Part shown: positions 158-59,872 of the stretch, piece by piece
Layout of the letters: every line of letters starts with the position of its first letter
Numbering within the stretch: the stretch's first letter is position 1
From: Methylomarinovum caldicuralii
GTDB taxonomy: Bacteria; Pseudomonadota; Gammaproteobacteria; Methylococcales; Methylothermaceae
DNA length: 64,000 nt
NCBI RefSeq assembly: GCF_033126985.1
Contig: NZ_AP024714.1
Span: 868,001-932,000, forward strand
Reading direction: 5' to 3'
The notes under the pieces: generated by a model
Told to the model about the DNA's origin: nothing
The model's input: the letters and a program-made list of their open reading frames with translations, nothing else
Database searches by the model: none
Program-made: the position numbers and the translations under genes

Positions 158-890
158 GCCAGCGGGCAGCCAAGCGGTGGCAGTCAGCGAGGGCTTCGTC
201 GAGGCGTTTTTGCAGGCGGGCGTGCGCCTCTCCGGTTTCCACGTTACGCAACCGCTGTTCCGTCGCCTGGAGGCGGTGGCTCAATGCCGCCAAATCCCGG
301 AGTTGATGCCGGAGTTCCATGAGTTCCTTTTCTTTCGCCTGCAGACGACGCTGGGCGTCGCTGCGGGTTTTGTGCAACTCCCGTTGCAGACGGGGCACCA
401 AATGTCGGTAGCGGTTGAAGCGTTCCATATCGATGCGCAGACTGGCACCTTGCAGGTGCGACAGCATGTGCACATCCCCGAACAAGCGGAACATCAACGC
501 CTCATCCGCGCAAGGATGGGTAATGCCGGCCCAGAACGCACCAGGGATCTCCCCGGCGGCAAAAGCCGCCTGCCACATTTCGGCCAGCGCCTGAACGTCC
601 TTGGCTTGGCGAAAACGCTTCAGTTCATTGGCATATTTGCGGTCCAGATGTTTCTGCGTCAGCTTGGCCAAGGGCCCCGGTTGGGAGATGGCGGTCACGA
701 AGGCGCAATGCAGTTGATAGTCGCTGAAATCGGCCGGCACCGTCATGCGCGCTTTGTGACAAAGCTGTATCAATTCATCCAGGGTCATGCAGGTGCCAGC
801 CACGCTGCAATGAAATCGGTGTTCCAGTTGCCAGATTTTGCGCCGGTGAGCACGGTCAGTTTTGATGTGGGTTGCCGTAACCAGAGTCAT
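158..890 (-). pseudogene. DUF2325-type protein, N-terminal part, interrupted by a group II intron
   Basis: Reading the minus strand from ATG at 888-890 gives about 244 uninterrupted residues up to the intron boundary. They begin MTLVTATHIKTDRAHRRKIW and include a conserved-looking HRFHCSVAGTCMTLDELIQL stretch and a C-terminal coiled-coil-like region rich in Arg, Gln and Leu. I recognise this from memory as the N-terminal region of proteobacterial DUF2325-domain proteins, whose function is unknown. A good ribosome binding site (AGGAGGAG) lies just upstream of the ATG, and a perfect Fur-like palindrome lies 26 bases upstream. The intron splits the gene at 157/158 in antisense orientation, so splicing from the sense transcript cannot restore it. 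The C-terminal DUF2325 domain, if retained, is left of the window. The family assignment is from sequence resemblance only. Confidence 0.6.
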
Positions 891-915
891 GATGGGTCTC
901 CTCCTTGCTTTTGAA

Positions 916-942
916 TGTTAATGATAATGGTTATCATTAACA
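916..942. promoter_or_regulatory. Fur box upstream of the DUF2325 gene
   Basis: A perfect 12-bp inverted repeat (TGTTAATGATAA and its complement) separated by TGG contains the core of the Fur consensus, GATAATGATAATCATTATC. It lies immediately upstream of the DUF2325 start on the minus strand, where an iron-responsive operator would overlap the promoter. Iron regulation is inferred from the motif only. Confidence 0.75.
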
Positions 943-1270
943 TGTCAAACCAAATTTCAATAAGCAAGCGATGCTCAACTGTGACAGCCTGACTCAGGAA
1001 CACTGGTTCCCAAGGTTTCGCACGCACTGGCCCAAACTGAGGTTGCAGGTCTGATGCGGCTGCAGTCGCCAGTAGGGGATGCGGAGGCTGGCCGTATCAG
1101 GCGCCTTTTCTGGCTGCGGCATTCGCACTCGCGATACTCAGGCGCCTGTCTTGCTGCTTTTTGGGGTGGTTGTCTCTCTCGATTTGGTTTCGAATACGGT
1201 ATTTTGGATTCCAAGGACAGGCCCTTCTTGACGGGATCCGTCGCCGTACTAATTGGAAGGAACGTCCATC
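943..1270. other. no recognisable gene
   Basis: Open frames exist on both strands (for example a 79-codon minus frame at 975-1214), but none resembles a family I know. The stretch lies between the Fur box and a decayed gene and is probably degraded or intergenic DNA. Confidence 0.4.
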
Positions 1271-1663
1271 TGTGGGTTTGCCGCCTGGTCGGGCCTGGAC
1301 ACCCTGTCCGAGGGTGTACGCCAGAATCTGCTGTGCTTTGAGGACTACGCCCGGGTCTTTCTTACCCTGACAGTGCTGCAGAATTTGGCCATCCCGGCCG
1401 CCTGCAAATGACTTGTGCCATGCTGGCGGTGATGGCCAAGTATTTGCGCGCCTCGCCGTTCTATCCACCCCCAGGCCAGCAGGGGCAGCAGCGCCGGTAA
1501 CCGCGGCCGCACCCTGCTGCAACTGATGCCCCGTCCCTTGCCAGACCCAGCCATCCTCTCGCCGTATCAACATGCACTCCTTGCCAGCGACTTCATCGCC
1601 GGCATGACCGATTCCTACGCGGTGGAACTGTATCAGCGGATTCGGGGGCTTGCGTTGCCGTGA
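1271..1663 (+). pseudogene. decayed dGTPase-like (HD-type dNTP triphosphohydrolase) C-terminal remnant
   Basis: Three pieces on the plus strand look like one broken gene: 1271-1411 in one frame ending in TGA, 1408-1500 in the next frame ending in TAA, and about 1487-1663 back in the first frame. The last piece holds DFIAGMTDSYAVELYQRI, very close to the C-terminal IAGMTD motif of Dgt-type dNTPases. The first piece (LCFEDYARVFLTLTVLQNL) resembles the FEGNAQ region of the same family. The N-terminal HD metal-binding half is not found. Two frame changes plus the missing front half mark this as a pseudogene. The family assignment rests on motif memory. Confidence 0.55.
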
Positions 1664-1687
1664 TCTGTTCCGGGGGGAAAGGGCTCA

Positions 1688-1984
1688 GTGCGACGTGAAG
1701 TCGTGTAAGTGATTGTTTTGCTTGCAAAAGGAAGTGCATGACAAAACCCGATGTGCTCCCATCGGTTCCCTAGGGACACGGGCGGGATCGGCAACGATCC
1801 GGTCCGAAGCTGTCCCGACAATGCACCCCATCCCGAAAGGGTGAAGCGGACCCCGTGAGGGAGAAGCGGAGCTGCGAGCATCACGTGGCAGGGGGCTAGG
1901 GACGGAGAGTATGGCGAACGAAAGTGAAGCATCGCTGGAACGCTCGTGAATCCCGAACAGCCAAAGATGCTGAAAGGCTGTAGC
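1688..1984 (+). mobile_element. 5' relic of a second type of group II intron
   Basis: The segment starts with GTGCGAC, the classic 5' end of bacterial group II introns. It continues with domain-I-like sequence, including GGCGAACGAAAGTGAA, typical of this ribozyme part. It is unlike the 5' end of the introns at 2880 and 4867, so it is a different intron family. There is no intron-encoded protein and no domain V: the relic ends abruptly where the IS481-family element begins at 1985. The insertion point is 25 bases after the dGTPase-like stop codon. Confidence 0.6.
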
Positions 1985-2868
1985 TGTCAAGCCCCGTGAG
2001 CTTGTATACACGTTTTTTGAAGAGCTCCGGTCGCTTCTTCTGCCAGTCTTTGAGGGCCGGTACTGGTGATATGTGTCCCAGGGCCTTCTGGGGGATCTGA
2101 TGGTTGTAGACACTGGCATACTGCATCAAGGTCCGTTCCAGATCCTGGCTGCTGCGGAAGCGGGTGGTTTTGAGGATCTCGGCGATCCGACCGTTGAAAC
2201 GTTCTACCATCCCATTGGTCTGCGGATGTTTGGGTGGGATGAGGCGGTGCTCGATGCCATGGCGTTGGCAGGTCTGGTCGAAAAGGTGACGGCCGGTCGG
2301 TTCGCGTTCCCCGGTGGCGCAGAAGCGGTCGGTGAATTGCTCACCCCATCCCTGGGGTTCGCCCCTTCGGGGGCCGCTGCGCGGTCCAAATCCGCTCCCG
2401 GCGGATTTGTCTTTGCCGTTGTCGGTCAGGACCTTGGTGATTTTGAAGGGGGCCTTGGCGATCAGGCGGTCGAGGAAGGCGGCGGCGACCTGGGCTTCCT
2501 TGGTGGGATGGATTTCCAGGTAGACCCAGCGACTGGCCCGGTCGATGGCGACGAAGAGGTAACGGCCCCGAGTCTCATCGGGCATCTTGGGCAGGTACTT
2601 GATGTCGATGTGGACAAACCCGGGCTCGTAGTCCTTGAAGCCTTTCTTTTTGGCCTTGGCGGGGGCGTTCTCCCCTTCCTTGGCAGCGATCAGTTCCTTG
2701 AGATTGGAGACCCCATGGCGGCGCAGCAGCCGGTCCAGAGCCGAGCGGGACATCTTGGGATGGATGAAGCGGTGAACGACCGCCAGCAGGTCGTCCAGGG
2801 GCAGCAGCAGGGTTTCGCGCAGACAGACGACGATCGCTTCCTGCTGCGGGGTCAGGGTGGCATGGATG
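1896..2868 (-). pseudogene. IS481-family transposase, 5'-truncated
   Basis: The reading frame encodes most of a DDE transposase: HIDIKY (first Asp), LTDNG (second Asp) and GMVERFNG (Glu). The helix-turn-helix N-terminus present in the full copy (start at 46146) is absent because the element is cut at 2868. An in-frame start at 2753 would give 285 residues. The frame has no stop inside the element and runs about 30 codons into the neighbouring intron relic, ending at 1896. A 24-residue Gly/Arg/Pro-rich insert follows the second Asp, as in the full copy. Non-functional without its DNA-binding domain. Confidence 0.8.
1985..2868 (-). mobile_element. IS481-family element, copy 1, truncated
   Basis: Nearly identical to the full copy at 45090-46175, starting at the same terminal sequence (TGTCAAGCCCC). 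The match stops at 2868, so about 200 bp with the start of the transposase gene and the other inverted repeat are missing. Eleven unrelated bases (2869-2879) separate it from the first group II intron. Confidence 0.85.
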
Positions 2869-2879
2869 GTACCCGTTCA

Positions 2880-4865
2880 TTGCGCCAGGCCAAGCCTGGA
2901 GAAGGAGGAAGTTATGTAGAAGGAAAGACATCGCTGAAACCTTCAGAGCGACCTGACAGGTGCAAGTCCTGTCCGGCCAAGGCTGGCCACCAGCCGGAAC
3001 CGAGTGTTGCGTGGTCGAGGAGCGATCCCGACTGCGAAGCGTACACAGGGGGCCTGTAGGCCGCGTGATGGAGCCTCGAAAGTACGGAATGCGGAGCCGA
3101 CGTTGTTGAACGGACGGAAGGCAACAGGGGTGGTGCTGTACTGGCCTGGCATCATCCCTCCGCCGGGGTCGAAGAGCGGGGCATGCAGGGCAAGGGTCGC
3201 CCAGGAACCTGGGAGGGCTCGATCACTCCTTGCGGGAAGAGCGGTGCGGGCGCCGTGTGAGAAAAGGCCCAGGCCCATCGGAGCGGTGTCCGGCCGATGG
3301 GAGCGAACGGGACACGAAGCAGGGTACCGGCGCGCGAAGGCGACGAAGCGCGCTGGGAAGGTGATCGAGCAATCGGAGCCTGCCGATAGTACCTGGGAAG
3401 TCGGGGAACCTGCCCCAAGGGACCCGATGGAGGGAAGCGGCAGGTCGGACGATGGGGCTTTCGGAGGGACAGATGGCCGGGACATCGAGCCAGGAGAACA
3501 TCTCAACACGACAACGGAAGCTAGCGGAACTGGCCCGGATCGAACCGAAGCTGGAACTGACCACGATTGCCCACCACATCGACGTGGTGTGGCTGGAAGA
3601 AGCCTGGCGGCGCACCCGCAAGGACGGGGCCGCCGGGGTGGACGGCGTGACTGCATCCCAATACGCAGCCGACTTAGAGGAGAACCTGACGCGCCTGCTG
3701 GAACGGTTCAAGACCGGCCGGTATCGGGCGCCTGCGGTACGGCGCGTCCACCTGCCCAAGCCGGGAACGGGAAAGACCCGCCCGATCGGCATTCCCACGC
3801 TGGAAGACAAGGTGCTGCAACGGGCGGTGCTGATGGCGCTGGAACCCATCTTCGAGCAGGACTTTCTCGACTGCGCCTACGGGTTCCGGCCCGGACGCAG
3901 TGCCCACCAGGCCCTGGAGAGGCTATGGGGCGGGCTGATGGCCATGGGCGGTGGCTGGGTCATCGACCTGGACATCCAAAACTTCTTCGACGATGTGGAC
4001 CGGGACCGGCTGCGGAACTTTCTGGGGCAGAGGGTGCGCGACGGCGTGATCTGCCGCGTGATCGGTAAATGGCTGAATGCCGGTGTCATGGAAGGCGGAC
4101 AGCTTCACTACCCCGAACAAGGGACACCGCAAGGTGGGGTGATCTCCCCACTGCTGGCCAACCTCTACCTGCATCACGTGCTCGACCTGTGGTTCGAGCA
4201 GACGGTCAAACCGCGACTGCAAGGCAGCGCCTTCGAAGTCCGGTTCGCCGACGATGCGGTCCTGGTGTTCAAACGGGAAGAAGACGCCCGGCGGGTATTG
4301 GCCGTTCTGGGCAAGCGCCTGGCCAAATACGGCCTGCGCCTGCACCCGGACAAAACCCGCCTGCTCGACTTCAGAAAACCCGGACGGAAAGGCCAGAGCT
4401 TCCAATACCTGGGATTCACCCACTACTGGGGACGCTCAAGGAAAGGGCGTTGGGTCGTCAAACGCAAGACCGCCCAAGCCCGGCTCAGCCGCTCCCTGCA
4501 GGCGATCAACCACTGGTGCCGGATGCACCGCCACTGGCCGGTTGCAGACCAACAAGCGGCCCTGAGCCGCAAACTCAAGGGGCATTATGCCTACTATGGG
4601 ATCGTCGGCAACAGCCAATCGCTGGCCCGCTTCCTGTACGAGGTCAGACGGCGCTGGTACAAATGGTTGTCCCGCCGCAACCGGGAACGGATGAACTGGG
4701 ACCATTTTGGGCGGCTGTACAAACGATACCCACTCCCCCCACCGCGCGTGGTTCACGGAATTGCCCGTTGCGTAGCGACGCCATAGTCCGAGGAGCCGGA
4801 TGCCTTAATCGGGCACGTCCGGATCTGTGGGAACCGCGGGTGAGCAATCGCCCGCGGTCACCCGG
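2880..4865 (+). mobile_element. full-length group II intron, tandem copy 1
   Basis: About 1986 bp: a 5' ribozyme part beginning TTGCGCC (close to the usual GUGYG start), the intron-encoded protein at 3452-4786, domain V at about 4793-4826 and domain VI ending near 4865. The boundaries come from comparing copies 1, 2 and the fragment at 1-157 and are good to a few bases. The next intron copy begins one or two bases after the end of this one, so the pair is exactly head to tail. Confidence 0.85.
3452..4786 (+). CDS. ltrA: group II intron reverse transcriptase/maturase, copy 1
   Basis: A 444-residue intron-encoded protein that helps the intron RNA fold and splice and reverse-transcribes it during retrohoming. 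Visible features are the RT fingers ([19 protein letters not shown]), [13 protein letters not shown], the [18 protein letters not shown] block and the active site as [10 protein letters not shown] (FADD rather than the commoner YADD). A maturase/X region follows, with RGHYAY-type [12 protein letters not shown] and a basic C-terminus. No HNH endonuclease domain is seen, as in intron classes that use other priming routes. It differs from copy 2 at one residue in the C-terminal tail (MNW versus MNR). The start could also be the Met eight codons in (MAGTSS). Confidence 0.93.
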   Translation: MGLSEGQMAGTSSQENISTRQRKLAELARIEPKLELTTIAHHIDVVWLEEAWRRTRKDGAAGVDGVTASQYAADLEENLTRLLERFKTGRYRAPAVRRVHLPKPGTGKTRPIGIPTLEDKVLQRAVLMALEPIFEQDFLDCAYGFRPGRSAHQALERLWGGLMAMGGGWVIDLDIQNFFDDVDRDRLRNFLGQRVRDGVICRVIGKWLNAGVMEGGQLHYPEQGTPQGGVISPLLANLYLHHVLDLWFEQTVKPRLQGSAFEVRFADDAVLVFKREEDARRVLAVLGKRLAKYGLRLHPDKTRLLDFRKPGRKGQSFQYLGFTHYWGRSRKGRWVVKRKTAQARLSRSLQAINHWCRMHRHWPVADQQAALSRKLKGHYAYYGIVGNSQSLARFLYEVRRRWYKWLSRRNRERMNWDHFGRLYKRYPLPPPRVVHGIARCVATP

Positions 4866-4866
4866 C

Positions 4867-6852
4867 TTGCGCCAGGCCAAGCCTGGAGAAGGAGGAAGTT
4901 ATGTAGAAGGAAAGACATCGCTGAAACCTTCAGAGCGACCTGACAGGTGCAAGTCCTGTCCGGCCAAGGCTGGCCACCAGCCGGAACCGAGTGTTGCGTG
5001 GTCGAGGAGCGATCCCGACTGCGAAGCGTACACAGGGGGCCTGTAGGCCGCGTGATGGAGCCTCGAAAGTACGGAATGCGGAGCCGACGTTGTTGAACGG
5101 ACGGAAGGCAACAGGGGTGGTGCTGTACTGGCCTGGCATCATCCCTCCGCCGGGGTCGAAGAGCGGGGCATGCAGGGCAAGGGTCGCCCAGGAACCTGGG
5201 AGGGCTCGATCACTCCTTGCGGGAAGAGCGGTGCGGGCGCCGTGTGAGAAAAGGCCCAGGCCCATCGGAGCGGTGTCCGGCCGATGGGAGCGAACGGGAC
5301 ACGAAGCAGGGTACCGGCGCGCGAAGGCGACGAAGCGCGCTGGGAAGGTGATCGAGCAATCGGAGCCTGCCGATAGTACCTGGGAAGTCGGGGAACCTGC
5401 CCCAAGGGACCCGATGGAGGGAAGCGGCAGGTCGGACGATGGGGCTTTCGGAGGGACAGATGGCCGGGACATCGAGCCAGGAGAACATCTCAACACGACA
5501 ACGGAAGCTAGCGGAACTGGCCCGGATCGAACCGAAGCTGGAACTGACCACGATTGCCCACCACATCGACGTGGTGTGGCTGGAAGAAGCCTGGCGGCGC
5601 ACCCGCAAGGACGGGGCCGCCGGGGTGGACGGCGTGACTGCATCCCAATACGCAGCCGACTTAGAGGAGAACCTGACGCGCCTGCTGGAACGGTTCAAGA
5701 CCGGCCGGTATCGGGCGCCTGCGGTACGGCGCGTCCACCTGCCCAAGCCGGGAACGGGAAAGACCCGCCCGATCGGCATTCCCACGCTGGAAGACAAGGT
5801 GCTGCAACGGGCGGTGCTGATGGCGCTGGAACCCATCTTCGAGCAGGACTTTCTCGACTGCGCCTACGGGTTCCGGCCCGGACGCAGTGCCCACCAGGCC
5901 CTGGAGAGGCTATGGGGCGGGCTGATGGCCATGGGCGGTGGCTGGGTCATCGACCTGGACATCCAAAACTTCTTCGACGATGTGGACCGGGACCGGCTGC
6001 GGAACTTTCTGGGGCAGAGGGTGCGCGACGGCGTGATCTGCCGCGTGATCGGTAAATGGCTGAATGCCGGTGTCATGGAAGGCGGACAGCTTCACTACCC
6101 CGAACAAGGGACACCGCAAGGTGGGGTGATCTCCCCACTGCTGGCCAACCTCTACCTGCATCACGTGCTCGACCTGTGGTTCGAGCAGACGGTCAAACCG
6201 CGACTGCAAGGCAGCGCCTTCGAAGTCCGGTTCGCCGACGATGCGGTCCTGGTGTTCAAACGGGAAGAAGACGCCCGGCGGGTATTGGCCGTTCTGGGCA
6301 AGCGCCTGGCCAAATACGGCCTGCGCCTGCACCCGGACAAAACCCGCCTGCTCGACTTCAGAAAACCCGGACGGAAAGGCCAGAGCTTCCAATACCTGGG
6401 ATTCACCCACTACTGGGGACGCTCAAGGAAAGGGCGTTGGGTCGTCAAACGCAAGACCGCCCAAGCCCGGCTCAGCCGCTCCCTGCAGGCGATCAACCAC
6501 TGGTGCCGGATGCACCGCCACTGGCCGGTTGCAGACCAACAAGCGGCCCTGAGCCGCAAACTCAAGGGGCATTATGCCTACTATGGGATCGTCGGCAACA
6601 GCCAATCGCTGGCCCGCTTCCTGTACGAGGTCAGACGGCGCTGGTACAAATGGTTGTCCCGCCGCAACCGGGAACGGATGAACCGGGACCATTTTGGGCG
6701 GCTGTACAAACGATACCCACTCCCCCCACCGCGCGTGGTTCACGGAATTGCCCGTTGCGTAGCGACGCCATAGTCCGAGGAGCCGGATGCCTTAATCGGG
6801 CACGTCCGGATCTGTGGGAACCGCGGGTGAGCAATCGCCCGCGGTCACCCGG
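4867..6852 (+). mobile_element. full-length group II intron, tandem copy 2
   Basis: The same 1986-bp unit shifted by exactly 1987 bp relative to copy 1. The only difference I noticed is one T-to-C change near position 6681-6683, in the MNW/MNR codon. Such identity suggests a recent duplication or gene conversion. Its 3' flank (from 6853) is the interior of a PEP-utilising enzyme gene. Confidence 0.85.
5439..6773 (+). CDS. ltrA: group II intron reverse transcriptase/maturase, copy 2
   Basis: A 444-residue protein identical to the copy at 3452-4786 apart from Arg in place of Trp at the MN(W/R)DHFGR site. It has the same RT blocks, FADD catalytic motif and maturase region and lacks an endonuclease domain. 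It lies within the second tandem intron, 573 bp from that intron's 5' end. Both copies look intact, so either could supply maturase in trans, including for the fragment at 1-157. Confidence 0.93.
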
Positions 6853-8342
6853 CCGGAGCGCTCTACGTCAACCGCCCCGAAAGCCGGCGCCGCGCCGGCA
6901 AGGGGGCGGGGGCGGCGGCCGCCTTCCGCCTCGCCCGGGGGGCGGACTGGATCGAGCGGGATTTCAGGGAGCTCTTCCTGCCCCGGTTCCACAAACAGAT
7001 GCGCCTGCAGGAAGCGCTCGATCTGGGGCGCTTCGGCAAGCAGGAGCTGCTGGAACTGCTGCACGACTGGGTCGAGGAATTCGTGACCCGCACCTACGTG
7101 CAGGCCGAGGTCATCAATGTCGCCGCCGATTTCTACTGGAAGACCGCCGCGGCCAAGCTGGAGAAGGCGGGCTTCGACCCGGCCCGCTATCTGACCGTCA
7201 GCGACGCCACGGTGGTGCACGAGGCCATGAGCCTGCTGGCCCGCAGGGAGCGGGAGCCTGCCGCGCTCGAAGCCTTCCTCCGGTGCTTCGGCCACCGCGC
7301 TCCCAACGACTACGAGCTGGCCCAGCCGCGCTACCGGGAGGACCCGGAGCTGGTGGCGGCGCTGGCCCAGCGTGCCGGCCATTCCCGGCCGCCGCAAACC
7401 GTGGAGCCGCCTCCTGGGAAGGTGCTGGCGCTGGCGGTCGAGCGGGCCCGGCGTTTCCAGACCCTCAAGGAGGAGGCCAAGCACGACTGCCTGCGCCAGC
7501 TGGCCAATCTCCGCCGGCTGCTCTGCGCCATCGGCGCGCGCTTCGGCCTGGGCGACGGGGTGTTCCAGCTCACCCTGGCGGAAGTCGAACGGCTTGCCGA
7601 GCCCGGCTTCGCCGCCGGCGCGAAAGCGCTGGCGGCGGCCCGGGACGAGCGGCAGCGGCGCTGGCAGAGCCGGGAACTGCCGGCCCGCCTGTCGGCAGCG
7701 TTCCTCGAAACCCTGGGGCAGGCGGATGTCGCGGCCGGGGACAGCGCCGCTGAGCTGTGCGGCACCCGGGTCGCCGGGGAAGGCGACGCCATCGGCCCGG
7801 TCCAGGTGGTGCGCGATCCCCGCGACCTGGAAACCTTCCGCGAAGGCCATATCCTGGTGGCGCGCTTCACCGATCCCACCTGGACGCCGCTGTTCGCCCG
7901 CGCCAAGGGTTTGATCACCGAGGTGGGCGGGTGGCTCAGTCATGCCGCCATCGTGGCGCGGGAATACAACCTCACCGCCATCGTCGGCGCCGCCAGCGTG
8001 ACCCGCCAGCTGAGCGACGGGGAGTTGGTGCGCCTCGGCCGCGACGGCCGCATCGTCAAGCTGACCGACCGGCGGGTCGATCCGCGCATTCCGGTGCAGG
8101 CGCCGCTGACGGTGATCCAGGGTGGCCGCCGGGTGGGGGCGGAGCTGCGCGACATGAGCCGCAGCGGCGCCCGCATCCGTACCGACGCCGGACTGGCGCC
8201 GGGCGATGTGGTCACGGTCGCGCTCGATCTGCTCGACCAGCCCCTGCCGGCGGAGGTGGTGCGGATGACCGGGGCGGGGGAGTACGGCCTGCGTTTCCGG
8301 GAGCCCCTGGAAGTCATGCCGCCGCAGCTCGACGCCGCCTGA
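6853..8342 (+). pseudogene. PEP-utilising enzyme mobile domain + PilZ protein, 5' half lost
   Basis: The frame is open directly from the intron boundary (ALYVNRPE...) to the stop at 8342, about 495 residues; an internal Met at 6999 would give 447. It carries the swivelling phosphohistidine domain of PEP synthase/PPDK-like proteins (GGWLSHAAIVAREY, catalytic His). The C-terminus is a PilZ c-di-GMP-binding domain with both signature motifs (RRVDPR and DMSRSGARI). The N-terminal PEP/pyruvate-binding ATP-grasp part expected in this family is missing, replaced by introns and an IS. The 11 bases before intron copy 1 join in frame with this gene (YPFTGALYVN), suggesting they are the last scrap of the 5' exon. 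Intact copies probably linked c-di-GMP level to a phosphotransfer reaction; this is inference. Confidence 0.7.
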
Positions 8343-8373
8343 ATCACGGGTGGCGGAAATTGGGCTAGGCTTA

Positions 8374-8406
8374 ACATACCGGCCGCGGTTTGGCCGGTAT
8401 GTTTTT
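8374..8406 (+). terminator. rho-independent terminator after the PEP/PilZ gene
   Basis: An 11-bp perfect stem (ACATACCGGCC with its complement), a 7-base loop and a run of Ts lie 31 bases downstream of the stop at 8342 and upstream of the PhnD-like gene. Confidence 0.85.
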
Positions 8407-8430
8407 CCGCATGCAACGAGGGGCTGATTG

Positions 8431-9252
8431 ATGATGCGATGGATCCGTTTCGGAGCGGCGCTGGCGCTGCTGTGGGCCTCAATGGCCGGCGCGGAGCCCC
8501 GGGTGTTGATTTTCGGCACCTATGCGGCCGACAAGCCGACCACGACCCTGAAGAAAATCAAGCCGCGATTGAAGGCGCTGGAGGCGGCCCTGAACGGGGC
8601 CGGGAAAGAGCCGGTGGTGCTGCGTTATCGCATTGCGCCCAGCTACGAGAAAGGGCTGGACGAGCTGCTCCGGGGAAAGGTGGACTTCGCCCGCCTGGGA
8701 CCGGCCTCGTATGTGGAAGCCAAATCCCGCAATCCCGCCGTCCGCGTTCTGGCTCTGGAGAGCCGCAAGGGGCGAACACGTTTCAAAGGCGTCATCGCGG
8801 TCCGGCAGGACAGCCCGATCCGGTCGGTCGCGGAACTGGCCGGCAAACGCTTCGCCTTCGGCAACCGCCGCTCCACCATCGGCCGTTACCTGGCCCAGGC
8901 CTACCTGCTCGATCACGGCATCCGTGCCGACGATCTGGCCGGATTCGAATACCTGGGCCGCCATGACAAGGTCGGCTGGGCGGTGGCGATGGGTCAGTTC
9001 GACGCCGGGGCGCTGAAGGAATCGACTTTCAACAAGGTGGTCAAGGCCGGGGCGCCGTTGCGGATCCTGGCGACGTTCCCCAACGTCACCAAACCCTGGG
9101 TCGCCGCCCCCCAGCTCGACGAAGCGGTTTTCCAGCGCCTGCGGGCGGCGATGCTGTCGCTGGGGCCGGAAGCCTTTCTTCCCGGTGATGACGGCGATTT
9201 CGCGGTCATTCGTGACGCCATCGAACGAAGCGCGCGCTTTTTCGGAGATTGA
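8431..9252 (+). CDS. PhnD-like periplasmic substrate-binding protein
   Basis: About 273 residues with a signal peptide ending near ASMAGA, then a type-2 periplasmic binding fold of the phosphate/phosphite/phosphonate (PhnD) family. Family marks include the segment around ARLGPASYVEAK, the RFAFGNRRSTIGRYLA region (typically FxdpxSTSG) and ESTFNKV. The ATG at 8431 is chosen because GAGGGG ends seven bases before it; an in-frame TTG lies three bases upstream and another ATG three bases downstream. No ABC permease or ATPase is nearby. The next gene, a membrane GGDEF-EAL protein, begins three bases after the stop, so this protein is more likely a ligand-sensing partner of that enzyme than part of a transporter. 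The ligand is unknown. Confidence 0.8.
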   Translation: MMRWIRFGAALALLWASMAGAEPRVLIFGTYAADKPTTTLKKIKPRLKALEAALNGAGKEPVVLRYRIAPSYEKGLDELLRGKVDFARLGPASYVEAKSRNPAVRVLALESRKGRTRFKGVIAVRQDSPIRSVAELAGKRFAFGNRRSTIGRYLAQAYLLDHGIRADDLAGFEYLGRHDKVGWAVAMGQFDAGALKESTFNKVVKAGAPLRILATFPNVTKPWVAAPQLDEAVFQRLRAAMLSLGPEAFLPGDDGDFAVIRDAIERSARFFGD

Positions 9253-9255
9253 ACG

Positions 9256-11649
9256 ATGCGGTCGCGGATCCGCTCCGGGTTTTCCCTGCCTTTCGTCCTC
9301 TTCCTGGCGCTGAGCGCTGCCGTGATCGGTGTCGGGTTCGCCGCCGGACAGATCGCCGCCCGGCTGGATCGGGAACAGCTTCAGGCCGAGCTGGCGCGTC
9401 ACAGCGACAGCACGCTGTCGCTGCTGTCGGCCTCGCTTTTGGAACCGTTGCTGAGTGAAGACATTCCGGTCATCCGGACCGTTGTGGAACGGGTCGCCCG
9501 TGCCGACCCGGATCTGTGCGAGATCGTCGTGCGCAATGCTGACGGGGACGTGCTGGTGCGATGGTCCCGTTCCGGCCCCCATGACGAGCAGCTGCATTTC
9601 AGCGGGCCGGTTGCGTTCGACGGGGAACGGCTCGGCGAAATCTCCCTGGCCTGGACTTCGGAACGTATCCGGCAGCAGCTGGAGGCCCGGACGGTGCGGG
9701 TCTGGCTGGCGACGACCGTCCCTCTGGCCGCGCTTCTGTTCCTGGTGCTCGCCATCGTTCATTGGCTGGCGGTGCGGCCGTTGCGGCGTATCTGCCGCCA
9801 TGCCGAGGCTTTCTCCCGGGGGGAGGGCAGCTCCCGCCTGCCTCCGAAAGGCAGCCGGGAACTGCGCCTGCTGACGGAAACGGTCAACAGGACCCTCGAG
9901 CTGATGGCGCAGAGCCGCCGGCAGCAGGCGGCGCTCGAAAAGGCGCTGGATGAGGCCCATGCCGCCAAGGAACTGGCCGAGGTGACGCTCCACTCCATCG
10001 GCGATGCGGTCATCACCACCGACCGTTACGGGCGGGTGACCTATCTCAATCCGGTCGCGGAGAAACTGACCGGCTGGCGCCGGGACGAGGCTGTCGGCCT
10101 GTCCATTCGCGAGGTGTTCTTCATCGTCGACGGTGAGAGCGGCGAGCGGATCGAAAACGATCCCGTCAGCCGGGCGCTGGAGGCGGACGACGTGGTGCTG
10201 CTCGAAGGCTATGTCAAACTCAATGCCCGTGACGGTCAGCAGTATGTCATCGAGGATTCGGCGGCGCCGATCCGCACCCGCGAGGGCGTCGTTCTCGGCG
10301 CGGTGCTGGTGTTCCATGACGTGACCGAGCAGCAGCACATGAGAGAGGAAATGAATTACCAGGCGACCCACGATCCTCTGACCGGCCTGCTCAACCGCCG
10401 GGCCTTCGAGCAGAAACTGCGCGATCTGGTCGAGGACTTCGAATGCAAGGAGCACGCGCTGCTCTATCTCGATCTCGACCAGTTCAAGGTGGTCAACGAC
10501 ACCTGCGGCCATGCCGCCGGCGACGCCCTGCTCAAGCAGCTGACTGCGGTGATGCAGGCGCGCCTGCGCCGCAGCGACATTCTCGCCCGGCTCGGGGGCG
10601 ACGAGTTCGCCATCATCCTGCCCTGCTGTCCGTTCGAACAGGCCCTGGCCTGCGCCGAAAAATTGCGTCAGGCGGTCCAGGATTTCCGTTTTCCCTGGCA
10701 GGGCAACACCTTCGCCGTGGGGGTCAGCATCGGTCTGGTGCCCTTCCGCGGCGCCGAGCAGAATCCCGCTGACGTGCTCAGCGCCGCCGACCAGGCCTGC
10801 TTCGCCGCCAAGGACGCAGGCCGCAACCGGGTCCACGTGTACCAGCCGGACGACCGCGAACTGGTGCAGCGGTGCCAGGAGATGCACTGGGTGGCGCGCA
10901 TCCACCGGGCGCTGGAGCGGGACGATTTCGCGTTGTACGTGCAGCCGATCGTGCCGGTGCGGGGCGAAGGGGAAGGCGACCACTACGAGATCCTGCTGCG
11001 GATGTACACCGAGGACGGCAAGCTGGTGCCGCCCGGAGCCTTCCTGCCGGCGGCTGAACGTTACGACCTGATTGGCCTCGTCGACCGCTGGGTGATCGAG
11101 GCCTACCTGGCCTGGCTGGGGGAAAATCCCGCGCATCAGGAGGATCTGGCACTGGCCTCCATCAACATTTCCGGCACCTCGGTTTCCGATACCCATTTTC
11201 TCGATTTCATCCTGCGTCAGGTGAAAGCCAGCGGTATCGATCCGAGCAAGCTGTGTTTCGAGATTACCGAAACCGTGGCTATCGCCAACATTGAGCACGC
11301 CCGCTGCATGATCGCGGCCCTGAGCGATCTGGGTTGCTGCTTCGCCTTGGACGACTTCGGTACCGGGATGTCGTCGTTCGGTTACCTGAAGCACATGCCG
11401 GTGGATTTCCTCAAGATCGACGGCTCTTTCATCAAGGATCTGGTCCGTGATCCCATCGATTATGCTTTGGTGAAGACTATCAATGAGGTGGGCCACATCA
11501 TGGGCAAACGGACCATTGCCGAGTTCGTCGAGGACGACGAGATCCTGCAGCGTTTGCGTGAGATCGGCGTCGATTTCGCCCAGGGGTACGGCATCGGCAA
11601 GCCCCAGCCTCTGGAAGAATGGGTTGCGGCCCGGCGGACGAGGCCCTAA
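9256..11649 (+). CDS. membrane-bound PAS-GGDEF-EAL c-di-GMP enzyme
   Basis: A 797-residue protein. A transmembrane helix at about residues 12-30, a periplasmic loop of about 120 residues, a second helix near 153-172 and a HAMP-like linker are followed by a PAS domain (TLHSIGDAVITTDRYGRVTY). The diguanylate cyclase domain has an intact GGDEF (residues 447-451) and an RxxD inhibitory site five residues before it. The EAL domain carries the catalytic Glu in YEILLRM (E578) and the DDFGTGMSSFGYL block. Both activities look possible. The gene is translationally close to the PhnD-like binding protein (three-base gap), resembling binding-protein/GGDEF-EAL pairs such as NspS-MbaA of Vibrio. The signal sensed is not known. 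Confidence 0.9.
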   Translation: MRSRIRSGFSLPFVLFLALSAAVIGVGFAAGQIAARLDREQLQAELARHSDSTLSLLSASLLEPLLSEDIPVIRTVVERVARADPDLCEIVVRNADGDVLVRWSRSGPHDEQLHFSGPVAFDGERLGEISLAWTSERIRQQLEARTVRVWLATTVPLAALLFLVLAIVHWLAVRPLRRICRHAEAFSRGEGSSRLPPKGSRELRLLTETVNRTLELMAQSRRQQAALEKALDEAHAAKELAEVTLHSIGDAVITTDRYGRVTYLNPVAEKLTGWRRDEAVGLSIREVFFIVDGESGERIENDPVSRALEADDVVLLEGYVKLNARDGQQYVIEDSAAPIRTREGVVLGAVLVFHDVTEQQHMREEMNYQATHDPLTGLLNRRAFEQKLRDLVEDFECKEHALLYLDLDQFKVVNDTCGHAAGDALLKQLTAVMQARLRRSDILARLGGDEFAIILPCCPFEQALACAEKLRQAVQDFRFPWQGNTFAVGVSIGLVPFRGAEQNPADVLSAADQACFAAKDAGRNRVHVYQPDDRELVQRCQEMHWVARIHRALERDDFALYVQPIVPVRGEGEGDHYEILLRMYTEDGKLVPPGAFLPAAERYDLIGLVDRWVIEAYLAWLGENPAHQEDLALASINISGTSVSDTHFLDFILRQVKASGIDPSKLCFEITETVAIANIEHARCMIAALSDLGCCFALDDFGTGMSSFGYLKHMPVDFLKIDGSFIKDLVRDPIDYALVKTINEVGHIMGKRTIAEFVEDDEILQRLREIGVDFAQGYGIGKPQPLEEWVAARRTRP

Positions 11650-42600: not shown

Positions 42601-43490
42601 ATGGCGGTGGGATGGTTGTGGGTTTCCACCTTCATCAGAATGTGGGCCGCTTCCTCGTGGTAGCGGTAACGGCCCTCGGGATCGCGCAGGAAGACCGGCG
42701 TGACCGCCCCCTCGATGACCGCGGCGTTGTCCTTGTAGGCGGAGAGGATGCCGGCCGGGCTCTTTTCCGCCGTGTTGCGGATCATCTGGAACAGGGATTT
42801 GTCCTGCGGCCGGCCGTCGATGGTCCAGGTGGCGTTGAAGATCTTGTGGCGGCAGTGCTCCGAATTGGCCTGGGCGAACATCATCAGTTCGGCGTCGGTG
42901 GGATCGCGGCCCAGTTCGGTGAAGCGTTCCACCAGATAATCGATTTCGTCGCAGGACAGCGCTAGCCCCAGTTCCCGGTTGGCGCGTTCCAGCGCGCCAC
43001 GGCCTTCGCTCAGCAGGGGAACGGTGACCAGCGGCGCCGGCGGGCGATGGGAAAAGATTTCCGCTTCCTCGCCTTCGGCCAGCAGCACTTCGGTCATGCG
43101 GTCGTAGAGGGGCTGGAGCTGGGGTTTGGCCAGCGGCTGGTCGGCGTCGAGGCAGTATTCGACGCCGCGTTCGATGCGCGTCACCACCGTCAGGCCGCAG
43201 GTGTGCAGGATGTCGGTCGCCCTGCTTGACCAAGGGGAAATGGTCCCGGGGCGGGGGAGCACCCAGAAATGCTGTCCGTCGAAACCTGCCTCGGCGGCAG
43301 GTTGTGGATTCAGCAGCCGCTCCAGGCGGCTGCGTTCTTCGGGAAGCAGCTCCCGCTGGCATTCGAGGTAGTGCACGTAGCGGGCGGCAAGGCGGCGGAT
43401 GGACGGTATCTGTGCCTGCAGGGTCTGCAGCAGCTTGTCGCGGCGGAAAGGGGAGAGGGCGGCGGGGCCCGGCAGTTCCAGTACGATCAT
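39624..43490 (-). CDS. purL: phosphoribosylformylglycinamidine synthase
   Basis: 1288 residues, the large fused gammaproteobacterial form of FGAM synthase (purine synthesis step 4). The order is an N-terminal PurS-like region, two AIRS-like ATP-binding domains ([28 protein letters not shown] is the conserved block, cited here in part: HNHPTAISP) and a C-terminal glutamine amidotransferase. The amidotransferase has the nucleophile Cys in LGVCNGCQ and the His/Glu in MMPHPERCF. The gene overlaps the bamC-like stop by four bases. Confidence 0.95.
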
Positions 43491-55021: not shown

Positions 55022-55870
55022 TCAGCTCAGTTCGCGGTGACGGGTCAGAATCGGATAGGGGCCGCCCGAGAACGCCCGTTTCAATCGTTCCACCAGATAG
55101 ACCGAACGGTGCTGGCCGCCGGTGCAGCCGATGGCCACGGTCAGATAGCTGCGGTTCTGGGCCTCGAAGCGGGGCAGCCAGTCGCGGAGGAAGGTTTCGA
55201 TCTGGTCGAGGAACCGTTGCGTCTCGGGATATTTCTCCAGGTAGTCGGCGACGCCGTCGTCCTTGCCGGTCAGGGGGCGCAGCCGCGGCTCCCAGTGGGG
55301 ATTGGGCAGGCAGCGGGCGTCGAAGACGAAGTCGGCGTCCAGGGGCAGGCCGTGCTTGAAGCCGAACGAGGTGAAGCACAGGGACAGCCTGCGGTTGTCC
55401 AGTCCGCCCAGCCGCTGGCGGATTTCCTGGCGCAGCTGGTGGATGTTGGTGCGGCTGGTGTCGATGATCAGATCGGCGCGGGCGGCGATGGATTCGAGCA
55501 GGCGCCGTTCCTGCTCGATGGCGTCGGCCAGGGGTCGGTCACCGATCGGGTGACGGCGCCGGGTTTCGCTGTAACGCTGGATCAGGGTCCGGGTGTCGGC
55601 GGTCAGGAACAGGATGCGGTATGGGATCTGGAACTGGGACAGGATTTCCAGGGCCTGGTCGAACAGATCGTCGTCACCGCCCAGGTTGCGGCAGTCAATG
55701 CTGATGGCGGTGCGGTCGAAGGGATGGTTTTCGCACAGGTCCCGGGCGAACGGTTCCAGCAGCCGCACCGGCAGGTTGTCGATGCAGTAGTAGCCGCAGT
55801 CCTCCAGCGTGGCCAGGGCCACGCTCTTGCCGGAGCCGGACAGGCCGCTGACGATGACGATCTGGTTCAT
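55022..55870 (-). CDS. rapZ: RNase adapter protein / nucleotide-binding protein RapZ
   Basis: 282 residues. Walker [12 protein letters not shown] is at the very start and the C-terminal part has the [17 protein letters not shown] motif. In E. coli RapZ directs RNase E to the GlmZ small RNA and so controls amino-sugar synthesis. It overlaps rpoN by four bases. The hpf and ptsN genes that often lie between rpoN and rapZ are missing here. Confidence 0.94.
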
Positions 55871-57300
55871 AACAGGCGCTTGCGCCGGCTGGAGGCGGGA
55901 ATCCCCAGGGCCTCACGGTACTTGGCCACGGTGCGGCGGGCGACGTGGATGCCCTTTTCCTGCAACAGCTTGGCGATCTTCAGATCGCTCAAGGGTTTGG
56001 CCGGATTCTCGTGTTGGATCAGCTCCTGGATCAGGGCCTTGATTGCGGTGGCCGAGGCCTCCCCGCCGAATTCGGTGCCCACGTGGCTGGAGAAAAAGTA
56101 CTTGAATTCGTAGATGCCACGGGGCGTGTGCATGTATTTGTTGGTGGTCACCCGCGACACCGTCGATTCGTGCAGCCCCAGTTCCCCGGCGACATCGCGC
56201 AGGATCATCGGCTTCATGGCGATCTCGCCGTGTTCGAAAAATCCCTGTTGGCGGTCGACGATGCACTGCGCCACCTTCAGCAGGGTCTCGCTGCGGCTCT
56301 GCAGGCTGCGCAGGAACCAGCGCGCCTCCTGCAGATGGGAGCGCATGCTGACGTTGTCCGGGCTTTTGTCGGCCCGTTTGATCATGCCTGAATAGTAGGG
56401 ATTGATGCGCAGTTTGGGGGCAGTTTCCGGGTTGACGGAAACCACCCAGCGCCCGCCGCGTCTGAAGACGAAGACGTCGGGAATGACGTATTCCGGTTCC
56501 CGGGTGGAGTAGGCGAGGCCGGGGTGGGGGTTGAGGGTGCGGATCAGGGCGATGACCTCGTCCAGCTGCGCCTCATCGAGCCCCAGGATTTTTTTGAGGG
56601 CGCCGATGTTCTGCTTCTCCAGTTCCCGCAGGTGGCGGGTGACGACCGTCAAGGCTTCCCGGCGCCAGGGGGTCTCCTCCGGCAGCTGATGCAGCTGGAG
56701 CGCCAGGCATTCCCCCAGGGAGCGGGCGGCGACGCCGGGAGGATCGAACTGCTGAAGCCGGTGCAGCACTGCCTCGACTTCGTCCGCCTCCAGGGCCGGC
56801 AATTCGTTCTCCAGCGCCTGGAGAATGTCCCTCAGGGAGGCTTCGAGGTAGCCCTCTTCGTTGATGGCGTCGATGAGGGCCATGGCGATGAGCTGGTCCC
56901 GTTCGCTGAAGCGCGACAGCTCCATCTGCCATTCCAGGTGCTCGTGCAGCCCTTCAGGCGCGCTGCGCTGGAGCAGGAAATCGTGGTCCGGGTCGTCCGC
57001 GCCGTTCAGGGTGGTATAGACGTTGTCGTAGACGTCCTCCCATTGGGCGTCCAGGGGGAGTTCCTTGGGGATGTCCGAGGCGGCCGCGGTCACCGGGGTT
57101 TCGGCGCTGCGGTCTTGGTCCGCCGTCTGAACCTGCGCCTGTTCCTCTTCCGCCAGCTCGAGCATGATGTTGCTCTCCAGAACTTCCTGAATCTCCTGCT
57201 TGAGCTCCACGGAGGAGAGTTGCAGCAGACGGATCGCCTGCTGCAGCTGCGGCGTCATCCTCAGCTGCAGGCCTTGGCGCAGTTGCAGGCTTTGCTTCAT
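55867..57300 (-). CDS. rpoN: RNA polymerase sigma-54 factor
   Basis: 477 residues. Region I is the Gln/Leu-rich start (LQLRQGLQLRMTPQLQQAI). A short acidic region II follows, then the core-binding and helix-turn-helix parts, and the RpoN box ARRTVAKYRE near the C-terminus, which recognises the -24 element. Length is normal. The N-terminus is preceded by the tRNA-Lys integration site region. Confidence 0.95.
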   Translation of the reverse strand: MKQSLQLRQGLQLRMTPQLQQAIRLLQLSSVELKQEIQEVLESNIMLELAEEEQAQVQTADQDRSAETPVTAAASDIPKELPLDAQWEDVYDNVYTTLNGADDPDHDFLLQRSAPEGLHEHLEWQMELSRFSERDQLIAMALIDAINEEGYLEASLRDILQALENELPALEADEVEAVLHRLQQFDPPGVAARSLGECLALQLHQLPEETPWRREALTVVTRHLRELEKQNIGALKKILGLDEAQLDEVIALIRTLNPHPGLAYSTREPEYVIPDVFVFRRGGRWVVSVNPETAPKLRINPYYSGMIKRADKSPDNVSMRSHLQEARWFLRSLQSRSETLLKVAQCIVDRQQGFFEHGEIAMKPMILRDVAGELGLHESTVSRVTTNKYMHTPRGIYEFKYFFSSHVGTEFGGEASATAIKALIQELIQHENPAKPLSDLKIAKLLQEKGIHVARRTVAKYREALGIPASSRRKRLL

Positions 57301-57378: not shown

Positions 57379-57423
57379 GTGGGCCGTGTTGGATCCGAAC
57401 CAACGACCATCGCATTAAAAGTG
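57379..57423. repeat. left attachment repeat of the tRNA-Lys element
   Basis: A 45-base copy of the 3' part of the tRNA-Lys gene (from the anticodon loop to the discriminator base), with one mismatch against 58798-58842 in the T-loop. It marks the outer end of the small integrated element. Confidence 0.85.
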
Positions 57424-57460
57424 CTAATTTTTTCATAACTTGTTGATAATTAAATAAATC

Positions 57461-57787
57461 TTGTTCCGGGCTTCCCTTTGCTATGCGCTACTTACGTCAT
57501 TTGACCTGAACCTCCCCACGCCTTTAGGCGTGGGGAGGTTCAGTGAAATCCCCATCGGCTCCCAAGGCGTCGCCTTCGACCGCCTTGACCTGGACGCCTG
57601 GGCCGACGACTATAAACAGCGCAAAGGGCGGCCCGGTAGGACAAAAGGAGGTGAAACATGGCGAAAAGAATTCCGGGCCTCAGAAAGAAAGGTCAGATCT
57701 GGCACATCGACAAGCAAATCCGAGGGTATGGCCGACTTTGCGAAAGCACTCGAACGGGCGACAGGGAAGCGGCCGAACGCTACCTGA
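57461..57787 (+). CDS. AlpA/excisionase-like frame overlapping int (probably 5'-altered)
   Basis: The frame runs through the hairpin and ends 130 bases inside the integrase gene. From about 57545 it reads IPIGSQGVAFDRLDLDAWAD, which resembles the C-terminal half of AlpA/MerR-type small DNA-binding regulators found just before phage-like integrases. An Arg/Lys/Ser-rich tail ending ATGKRPNAT follows. The helix-turn-helix N-terminus normally expected is missing, replaced by the hairpin region. Start uncertain. Overlapping xis-int frames are known in such elements. Confidence 0.45.
   Translation: MFRASLCYALLTSFDLNLPTPLGVGRFSEIPIGSQGVAFDRLDLDAWADDYKQRKGRPGRTKGGETWRKEFRASERKVRSGTSTSKSEGMADFAKALERATGKRPNAT
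57506..57543. repeat. long perfect hairpin in the element's left part
   Basis: A 17-bp perfect stem (CTGAACCTCCCCACGCC and its complement) with a TTTA loop. There is no T-run, so it is not a typical terminator. Similar CCTCCCCACGCC...GGCGTGGGGAGG hairpins are known at the ends of IS200/IS605-type elements, so it may be a relic of one; alternatively it is a recombination or regulatory site of the element. Confidence 0.75.
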
Positions 57788-58791
57788 TACGGCGGCTGGC
57801 GGAGATCGAGACGGAGGCCAGAAACAGACGGGAACGGCACACGTTCCGGGAGGCGACAACGCGCTACCTGAACGAGCACATGCACAAACGCAGCATCGCC
57901 AGGGACGCTGACTGCCTCAAGAACGTCGATCCGCACATCGGCGACCTGCCCCTGGACGAAATCCACATGGGAACGCTGCAACCTTACATCGACGCCAGGC
58001 GACAGGCGGGCATCAAGAGCGCCACGGTCAAGCGGGAACTGGCCGTGGTGCGCCGGGTGCTGACGCTCAGCGCCAGACTGTGGCGGGACAGGTACAACCG
58101 CCCCTGGCTGGACACCGTGCCCATGTTCCAGATGCCGAACTGGGAAGACAGCGCCGAACCGTATCCGCTCAACGCCGAAGAACAGCGGCGGCTACTGCAA
58201 GCGCTGCCGGATCACCTGGCGGCCATGGCCCTGCTTGCCGTCAACACCGGGCTGCGCGAACAAGTCGTCTGCTGGTTGCGGTGGGGCTGGAAAACCCGGA
58301 TCCCGGAACTGGACGCCACCGTGTTCGTGGTCCCAGGGCGGCGGATACGCTATGGAGACGGCATGTGGCCGGGGACGAAGAACAAAAGCGACCAGGTGGT
58401 GGTGCTCAACCGGGTGGCCCGGTCCGTCATCGAGGGCCAGCGCTTCCTGCATCCCGAAGACGTGTTCTGCTATCGCGGCAAGAGGATAGGTCACATGCAC
58501 TCAACGGCCTGGAAACGGGCCTGGGCGGAAGCCGGGCTGCCGACGGACGGCAGGTACAACAAAGGCCCGCACAACCTGCGTCACACGTTCGGCAGAAGGC
58601 TGAGGGCGGCGGGCGTGCCCCTGGAGACCAGAAAGGCGCTGTTGCACCATACCGACGGCGACGTGACCCTGCACTACTCGCCGGCGGAACTTGGCGAGCT
58701 GATCGCCGCGGTGGAAAGACTGGCGGACATCGAGTCCGGAAAAACTCCGCCAGTCACGCTGCTGCGAAAAAATTTCGCTGTAAGTTCTTGA
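57658..58791 (+). CDS. int: tyrosine integrase of the tRNA-Lys element
   Basis: 377 residues. The N-terminal part is an arm-type and core-binding region (WHIDKQIRGYGRLCEST, then ERHTFREATTRYLNEH). The catalytic domain has Arg in NTGLREQVVCWLRW, the HNLRHTFGRRLRAAG block (His, Arg) and LLHHTDGDVTLHYSPAE with the Tyr nucleophile. GGAGG seven bases before ATG 57658 supports the start. It is oriented toward the tRNA 3' end. It is the only complete gene of the element. Confidence 0.9.
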   Translation: MAKRIPGLRKKGQIWHIDKQIRGYGRLCESTRTGDREAAERYLIRRLAEIETEARNRRERHTFREATTRYLNEHMHKRSIARDADCLKNVDPHIGDLPLDEIHMGTLQPYIDARRQAGIKSATVKRELAVVRRVLTLSARLWRDRYNRPWLDTVPMFQMPNWEDSAEPYPLNAEEQRRLLQALPDHLAAMALLAVNTGLREQVVCWLRWGWKTRIPELDATVFVVPGRRIRYGDGMWPGTKNKSDQVVVLNRVARSVIEGQRFLHPEDVFCYRGKRIGHMHSTAWKRAWAEAGLPTDGRYNKGPHNLRHTFGRRLRAAGVPLETRKALLHHTDGDVTLHYSPAELGELIAAVERLADIESGKTPPVTLLRKNFAVSS

Positions 58792-58797
58792 ATTTGA

Positions 58798-58842
58798 TGG
58801 GCCGTGTTGGATTCGAACCAACGACCATCGCATTAAAAGTGC
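58798..58842. repeat. right attachment repeat (within tRNA-Lys)
   Basis: The 45 bases of the intact tRNA-Lys 3' part repeated at 57379-57423 (44 of 45 identical). Integration into the tRNA 3' half leaves the gene intact on this side. Confidence 0.85.
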
Positions 58843-58870
58843 GGTGCTCTACCGACTGAGCTAACGGCCC
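58798..58870 (-). tRNA. tRNA-Lys (TTT anticodon)
   Basis: The minus strand folds as a standard cloverleaf: acceptor GGGCCGT/ACGGCCC, D arm GCTC..GAGC, anticodon loop CTTTTAA giving anticodon TTT, and T arm GTTGG TTCGAAT CCAAC. The discriminator is A at 58798; CCA is not encoded. It is the integration target of the small element to its left. Confidence 0.95.
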
Positions 58871-58930: not shown

Positions 58931-59872
58931 TCAGTCCTCCACCTGCTGGATGCCGTCCAGCCGCCAGCCGGCATTGAACTGGCGCCGGGGGCGGACGAAG
59001 TGCCAGATTTCCTCGATCTGCTCGGGGGGGTGTCGTCCTTCCCTCAGCAGGGCGGTGAACAGGACCGCGGCCTCTTCGCCGTCCTCGTCGCGGCGGTAGT
59101 CGAGCAGTTGGGCGTCCAGCTCCAGCACTTCGGTCGGCTCGCCGCTGTCTTCCTGCTGCCACTGGTCCTTGATCTCCATGAACACCTCATCGGTGGTCAG
59201 CGCGCGGATGTCGGCCATCTCCCCCCGGTTCCAGGCTTCCTGGAGCCGCAAAAACAGGGACTTGGCCTCTTCCAGGAAGGCGTCCACGTCGAAGTCGGCC
59301 GGAAGTTCCGGCGGCGGAGCCTCCACGGTGCGGGCGCCCTTGCGGCCGAACAGCAGGTCGGTGTCGAACGGCCGCCGGGGGGCCGATTCCGTGGCCCGGA
59401 AGCCGCCGGTTGGGGATGCATCCGGGCCGGGATCGTAACCGCTTCCGCCATAAGGGCTTTCCGCCGCCGGTTGGGGGCGGCGCGCCAGCAGTTTGAAGGC
59501 CAGAAACGCCAGGCCCCCCAGCACCAGGATGTCGGCCAGGTTGATGTGCTCGAAGGCGCCGCCGAAGAACAGCGCCCCCAGCAGTCCTCCGATCAGGAAT
59601 GGGGCCAGCATGCCCAGAAGACCGCCGCGATTGCGCCAGGACTGGCGGGCGGCCTGATTGCGCTGGGCGGTCGCCTGCCGCTGTGCCGCCTGTTGGCGGT
59701 TGTACAGGGGCTTTTTGGGGATCGCCGAGCGTTTGTACGGCATGCTGTACAGCGGTCGGCCGCCGAAGGAGCGACCGCCGCCAAAGCGCTTGGCCTCGGC
59801 GTCCTGGAAGGGGGCCATGACGAAAACGGCCGTCAACAGCAGGCTGAGAAGGCTCAGGGGAAGTTTTATCAT
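58931..59872 (-). CDS. Tim44-like domain protein
   Basis: 313 residues: a signal or membrane start (LPLSLLSLLLTAVFVMAPFQDAEA), a Gly/Arg-rich linker, two hydrophobic segments (GMLAPFLIGGLLGALFFGG and LADILVLGGLAFLAF) and a C-terminal Tim44-like domain (VDAFLEEAKSLFLRLQEAWNRGE). It is likely an inner-membrane protein; the role is unknown. It lies between the tRNA and moaC. Confidence 0.83.
   Translation of the reverse strand: MIKLPLSLLSLLLTAVFVMAPFQDAEAKRFGGGRSFGGRPLYSMPYKRSAIPKKPLYNRQQAAQRQATAQRNQAARQSWRNRGGLLGMLAPFLIGGLLGALFFGGAFEHINLADILVLGGLAFLAFKLLARRPQPAAESPYGGSGYDPGPDASPTGGFRATESAPRRPFDTDLLFGRKGARTVEAPPPELPADFDVDAFLEEAKSLFLRLQEAWNRGEMADIRALTTDEVFMEIKDQWQQEDSGEPTEVLELDAQLLDYRRDEDGEEAAVLFTALLREGRHPPEQIEEIWHFVRPRRQFNAGWRLDGIQQVED

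Follow-up and report, generated by a model that had tools for sequence, protein, structure and literature searches.

A 1.4-kb integrase segment at tRNA-Lys(UUU), read as the probable remnant of a larger integrated element

Islands integrated at tRNA genes have been surveyed with Islander, which, in the part of its description available, rejects island candidates under 2 kb (PMC4383910). In Escherichia coli S39EC, a pheV island remnant is described, in the accessible part of the report, as retaining only intP4 and shiA, and the authors suggested a deletion mediated by flanking ISs (PMC11537424). The archaeal NitUzo-E2, a cryptic integrated element of 2.6 kb with four predicted proteins including a wHTH protein, is given as the smallest of its survey in the portion consulted (PMC6563490). 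Literature on integrase-only elements and remnants, as far as its text was accessible, contained precedents for remnants and no description of the locus studied here.

This locus lies in a 64,000-nucleotide window, the whole stretch of DNA that was analysed, within a single-contig genome of 2.69 Mb (G000, C1:868001-932000). Two 45-bp direct repeats, at 57380-57424 and 58798-58842, have starts spaced 1,418 bp apart and are identical at 44 of 45 positions, with a C/T mismatch at the 16th base. The second copy forms the 3' portion of an intact tRNA-Lys(UUU) gene (58798-58870, minus strand), called by ARAGORN (ttt) and matched by Rfam RF00005 at 75.1 bits, and the first, the distal attachment repeat, is a displaced tRNA-Lys 3' end in the same orientation. 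Between them lies a complete tyrosine integrase gene of 377 aa (57658-58791, plus strand), which runs toward the tRNA, with 6 bp between its stop codon and the 3' end of the tRNA gene. An intact tRNA at one end, a same-orientation 3' fragment at the other and a complete integrase gene inside give the segment the layout of a tRNA-integrated island, but it holds no cargo genes and its 1,418 bp do not reach the Islander length of at least 2 kb. The chromosomal flanks carry rpoN (sigma-54; 55867-57300, minus strand) on one side and a gene for a Tim44-like domain protein (58931-59872, minus strand) on the other.

An earlier note on this DNA had reported two 45-bp direct repeats around a complete tyrosine integrase at tRNA-Lys, with the integrase next to the tRNA 3' end as in genomic islands and with no cargo. 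Repeats, reading frame and tRNA were all found, and these statements were borne out, the integrase being the single complete gene between the repeats; open reading frames and family matches gave no further complete, nameable gene there. The note's phrase "almost nothing else" holds for complete genes, but it passed over a truncated companion gene, a 38-bp palindrome and an 81-bp stretch of 33% GC. The integrase is intact as described, with a complete reading frame and the expected residues. Among RNA families, Rfam returned only the tRNA within the element, with the Plastid-ycf2 and Chlorobi-1 rows below their gathering scores. Genes for replication, regulation or packaging interference, as expected of a phage satellite, were not seen, since family matches or a reading were obtained only for the integrase frame and the gene fragment. 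Elsewhere in the window, a 91-nt tRNA-Ala(AGC) called by ARAGORN at 43098-43188 had no Rfam match up to E = 0.1 and is probably spurious.

The integrase matched PF00589 above cut-off (E = 5.8e-13) and phrog_1 (E = 2e-39). In an alignment of nine sequences, R200, K241, H305, H331 and Y340 were invariant, and position 308 was R in eight and K in one; we take these to be the tyrosine-integrase catalytic positions. A search of G000 at E <= 0.001 found the integrase once, with neither a duplicate nor a close relative elsewhere, and five further PF00589 matches in that genome lie outside the result of this homology search. Compared with an integrase fragment in the congener G004, the differences at codon positions 1, 2 and 3 numbered 23, 16 and 57, over about 110 positions each. 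This bias to the third position shows a lineage long under purifying selection, so the integrases of the window and of G004 worked for most of their separate history, and the breakage is younger. A recent deletion would explain an intact integrase of such a lineage, and so would continued use.

The segment is a real and precisely bounded insertion, because the congener G009 has the same site empty, with the flanks contiguous around a single repeat copy. When the window flanks were joined across one repeat, they matched G009 at 230 of 241 aligned positions, and the flanks themselves were 94.8% identical over 1,803 and 93.7% identical over 1,546 aligned positions, with rpoN and the Tim44-like gene also adjoining the empty site. 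A chance repeat is thereby ruled out. Gain in G000 and loss in G009 both fit this comparison.

The size of such elements was compared across 160 integrase loci, comprising the best 80 matches from genomes and the best 80 from viral contigs. A tRNA adjoins the integrase in 73 of these 160 best-matching loci (59 genome, 14 viral); eight amino acids are represented among these tRNAs, Met, Arg, Lys and Pro accounting for most of them, and in 72 of the 73 they stand on the strand opposite the integrase, as in the window. Among the 40 loci of the best-80 lists with a tRNA next to the integrase and 9 kb or more of upstream sequence, a same-orientation copy of the tRNA end was within reach in one (L152, 6.5 kb), in a search by exact 16-mer that misses worn repeats and with many viral contigs ending at the integrase. 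Another of the 40 (L150) has a copy in the other orientation, and outside this group copies lie at 6.8 kb in L109 and at 2.3 kb in L151. The interval in L151, a Gallionellaceae MAG, is at tRNA-Val (784-3147) and contains an integrase match without the first nine residues and, by reading, an HTH-like stretch; it is another small remnant.

Two genomes from other genera of the order carry same-way copies of the tRNA-Lys repeat at much greater distances, 14.3 and 40 kb in G041 and 38.5 and 55 kb in G016, where the adjoining integrases are 59% and 55% identical, respectively. Neighbouring copies in these genomes are spaced 14-39 kb apart and are candidate island ends. The 1.4-kb segment is therefore far below the usual element size, given one near repeat among 40 relatives and repeat copies 14-55 kb away at tRNA-Lys.

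In the relatives, a companion gene was recognised by its overlap with the integrase start, and a profile of 111 positions was built from the sequences of six of them. The profile matched the gene from the N-terminus on in 67 of 75 genome loci (five of the 80 were dropped for having less than 500 bp upstream) and in all 79 viral loci (one of 80 dropped). The gene is not always kept, as three of the 75 genome loci had it in part and five had no recognisable one. The window companion (57545-57787, plus strand) also overlaps the integrase start with its 3' end, but it matches profile positions 35-109 only, and two N-terminal helices are missing.

A structure model of the companion, based on 35 sequences, had a mean pLDDT of 74.7, with 95-96 in each block of residues 11-60, and the predicted order strand, helix, helix, strand, strand, helix, which we read as a winged helix-turn-helix. 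The part lost in the window holds both helices of the helix-turn-helix. Pukovnik Xis, the RdfS excisionase, BldC and RacA were among the nearest solved folds, all at E > 0.05, and the viral model matches included one helix-turn-helix protein at E 4.4e-4 and several lower ones named Excise. Pfam searches with three companion proteins gave no family above cut-off and one sub-threshold AlpA match (E 0.075), and PHROG 13517, of unknown function, matched one companion protein tested. From its position, size and modelled fold, we infer that the companion is an excisionase. The truncated gene is the sole candidate in the segment for the excisionase or directionality factor that a self-mobile element would have intact.

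Directly upstream of the truncated companion is a perfect 38-bp palindrome (57506-57543), and between it and the distal repeat lie 81 AT-rich bp (57425-57505; 33% GC against 65% in the window) that end in TTGAC (57501-57505). The palindrome matches, up to one or a few bases and over about 30 bp, the hairpin at the right end of a tnpB-type IS200/IS605-like element, as found beside three tnpB genes, two of full length in G009 and one with an internal deletion in G000; one of these three right ends differs by one base in the outer arm. TTGAC precedes all three close IS copies, as it does the palindrome, and both edges of the palindrome coincide with the IS terminus. The tnpB product (L082) has a Cas12f1-like TNB domain. 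Other tnpB matches in G000 and G009 were weaker, and the two inspected were without such ends. The only close copy in G000 of the element whose hairpin matches the palindrome (L078; C1:2315000-2326000, 5245-6020) is the internally deleted one, which keeps its left and right terminal hairpins and adjoins argB, a gene identified by reading.

No palindrome match was found at any of the 160 integrase relatives (L085-L244) at E <= 0.01. In one of them (L097), a continuous stretch of the companion gene matches both sides of the palindrome, and TTGAC is coding sequence there; the motif occurs at that position in 5 of 138 companion genes. Because TTGAC directly precedes the palindrome, both sides match this continuous stretch and the relatives have no palindrome, a tnpB-type IS most likely inserted in the companion gene. 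The window thus has the terminal hairpin and the preceding TTGAC of an IS200/IS605-like right-end relic, but no IS left end or tnpB at this place, the left flank being the 33% GC stretch, which is unlike the IS left ends compared. The palindrome itself may have arisen when two IS ends in inverted orientation were joined at its middle, or from a quasi-palindrome that became perfect.

The tRNA-Lys(UUU) locus was located in eight of the ten genus genomes; G006 and G008 were left out, as their best matches were tRNA-Lys(CTT). Integrase or its remains stand there in five of the eight (G000, G003, G004, G005 and G007). G007 has a broken integrase and a 3' remnant of the companion, and at the same place (L066, C30, 10945-12145) hicB and hicA lie beside them. 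G004 has a repeat-bounded segment of 1.79 kb (L065, C169, 1582-3448) with a truncated integrase and genes for a Phd/YefM antitoxin, a PIN-domain protein and DUF433. In G003 there are short integrase fragments, the longer 71% identical over 132 positions, and in G005 a 5.9-kb element (L067, C1:812000-828000, 5298-11298) with a different integrase and a DUF3987 gene. The displaced copy of this last element has 47 bp identical to the tRNA end of the window, and ARAGORN calls a tRNA in it. The site is empty in G009 and has no integrase in G001 and G002, and these three genomes gave no match to the window integrase at E <= 0.001. Far-end sequence common to the window and the small G004 segment was also considered and rejected, as 57425-57505 showed no significant similarity to the matching G004 stretch, with 128 of 300 shuffles reaching the score.

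Two further observations concern tRNA-Lys surroundings. In G002 (L071, C32, 7344-13886), repeat-like copies stand 6.4 kb apart, counted from tRNA-Lys(CTT), and an integrase lies close to the more distant one. Six congeners (G001-G005 and G007) carry a phosphomannose-isomerase-like gene 5' of tRNA-Lys(UUU), a call made by reading with Pfam support for G001, and G000 and G009 carry the Tim44-like gene in that place; since this neighbour differs, the tRNA or its surroundings moved between the two groups.

Considering these results, we conclude that the 1,418-bp segment is, with a probability of about 0.86, what a deletion has left of a larger integrative element, of the genomic-island or prophage type, at tRNA-Lys(UUU). 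The earlier note had offered both a minimal, helper-dependent unit and the end point of island decay. Decay is favoured over the minimal unit, because the conserved companion is cut with an IS-type scar, a second repeat within 9 kb is rare among the integrase relatives (1 of 40), the two order genomes have same-way tRNA-Lys repeat copies 14 to 55 kb away, and congeners carry broken integrase copies at the same tRNA. As grounds for refuting the minimal unit, the note had named related strains with a large island and the same repeats at this tRNA; such spaced copies appeared in other genera of the order, but not within the species, which is represented by one genome. An island with this very integrase and full cargo was not found, the close genus matches being themselves fragments.

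Tyrosine integrases carry out a crossover at the tRNA site. The ancestral element would have entered by means of its own integrase, through a crossover between its tRNA-like site and the tRNA-Lys 3' end, bringing a replacement 3' part for the tRNA while the displaced copy came to lie at the far end, a step supported by the anatomy and the empty site. A tnpB-type IS200/IS605-like element would then have inserted into the companion after TTGAC and shrunk to its terminal hairpin, and a deletion would have taken the N-terminal part of the companion and the cargo, ending some 80 bp short of the far repeat. Such a deletion is suggested because 57425-57505 contains no trace of the companion (no N-terminal match in six frames at E below 0.5 with filters off) and could not accommodate the missing part together with a start; most of these 81 bp probably belonged to the far end of the former island. 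We infer this order of events and the exact break point from the observed anatomy. In the present state, attL x attR removal could occur, given expression of the integrase and a directionality factor supplied from outside the segment. With the integrase and both repeats preserved, the remnant might be excised or might act in trans on other tRNA-Lys islands, and regulated excision seems unlikely without help, as the excisionase-like partner is lost.

Other readings were weighed against collapse. The palindrome might have no IS origin and serve the integrase operon as a terminator of transcription or as a regulatory hairpin, and its 18-bp perfect stem, in a region (57425-57660) that folds far more stably than shuffles, would suit such a role. 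However, a hairpin of this kind would have to match IS right ends over about 30 bp, end at an exact IS terminus on both sides, follow TTGAC, sit inside the reading frame of the companion and yet be unmatched at the 160 related loci, which makes this very improbable. For the segment as a whole, a minimal and still mobile element consisting of integrase and attachment sites, alone or with trans helpers for replication, transfer and Xis, is quite unlikely. The complete integrase with the expected residues, AAAGGAGG shortly upstream of its start codon, the nearly identical repeats and the empty site in G009 agree with it, and the 1.79-kb repeat-bounded segment of G004 at the same tRNA indicates that small sizes recur. 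That same G004 segment nevertheless speaks against it, since it holds a broken integrase with Phd/PIN toxin-antitoxin genes and no copy of the window unit, and so do the cut in the companion at an IS-type scar, the single integrase match in the genome and the repeat copies already one base apart.

A bolder form of mobility, in which attL, attR and one integrase suffice for a 1.4-kb self-excising cassette that re-enters tRNA-Lys and supplies integrase in trans, with gutted islands persisting as "integrase outposts" at hotspots, can be imagined from the sequence and is decidedly unlikely. It also seems scarcely probable that the host or other islands maintain the integrase, whether for trans action on a tRNA-Lys hotspot or as a landing site under selection. 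The third-position-biased divergence from G004 and the recurrence of integrase or remains at tRNA-Lys(UUU) in five of eight genus genomes would accord with such upkeep. Yet the gene has one match only in G000 and is not kept across the genus, because it is broken in three congeners (G003, G004 and G007) and unmatched at E <= 0.001 in three (G009, G001 and G002). We therefore retain the deletion remnant as the best explanation.

Relics of this kind are known, and the segment is an unusually small and clean one, probably produced by ordinary island decay. It provides a snapshot of how a tRNA island may collapse, through integration, an IS hit in the companion and cargo loss, with the repeats and the integrase left. 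If excision were demonstrated, the segment would provide a lower bound for the requirements of a tyrosine-integrase element. Phage counterparts that would likewise fall in phrog_1 include the integrases of Achromobacter phage CF418P1 and Pseudomonas phage phiPSA1, which are 46.5% and 42.4% identical, respectively, over 99% of the window integrase and, unlike it, sit on phage records of 58 and 51 kb. As far as the available text of Islander goes, the segment shares with its islands the regenerated tRNA, the same-orientation displaced 3' fragment and the tyrosine integrase between them next to the tRNA 3' end, but differs in its 1.4 kb, its lack of cargo and its cut companion; an Islander survey would miss such relics, because their size is below the 2-kb filter (PMC4383910). 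PICMI phage satellites are, in the portion of their description consulted, similarly chromosomal and reduced in gene content, whereas the segment has only an integrase and a fragment, a distinction drawn from description and not from sequence (PMC10803314). NitUzo-E2, judged from the accessible part of its account, is likewise a tiny integrase-bearing element, but its wHTH protein is encoded, whereas the wHTH companion in the window is broken (PMC6563490). In the S39EC pheV remnant, according to the part of the report available, the survivor is also an integrase beside a tRNA; the present segment differs in keeping both attachment repeats, with only the integrase and a gene fragment remaining between them (PMC11537424).
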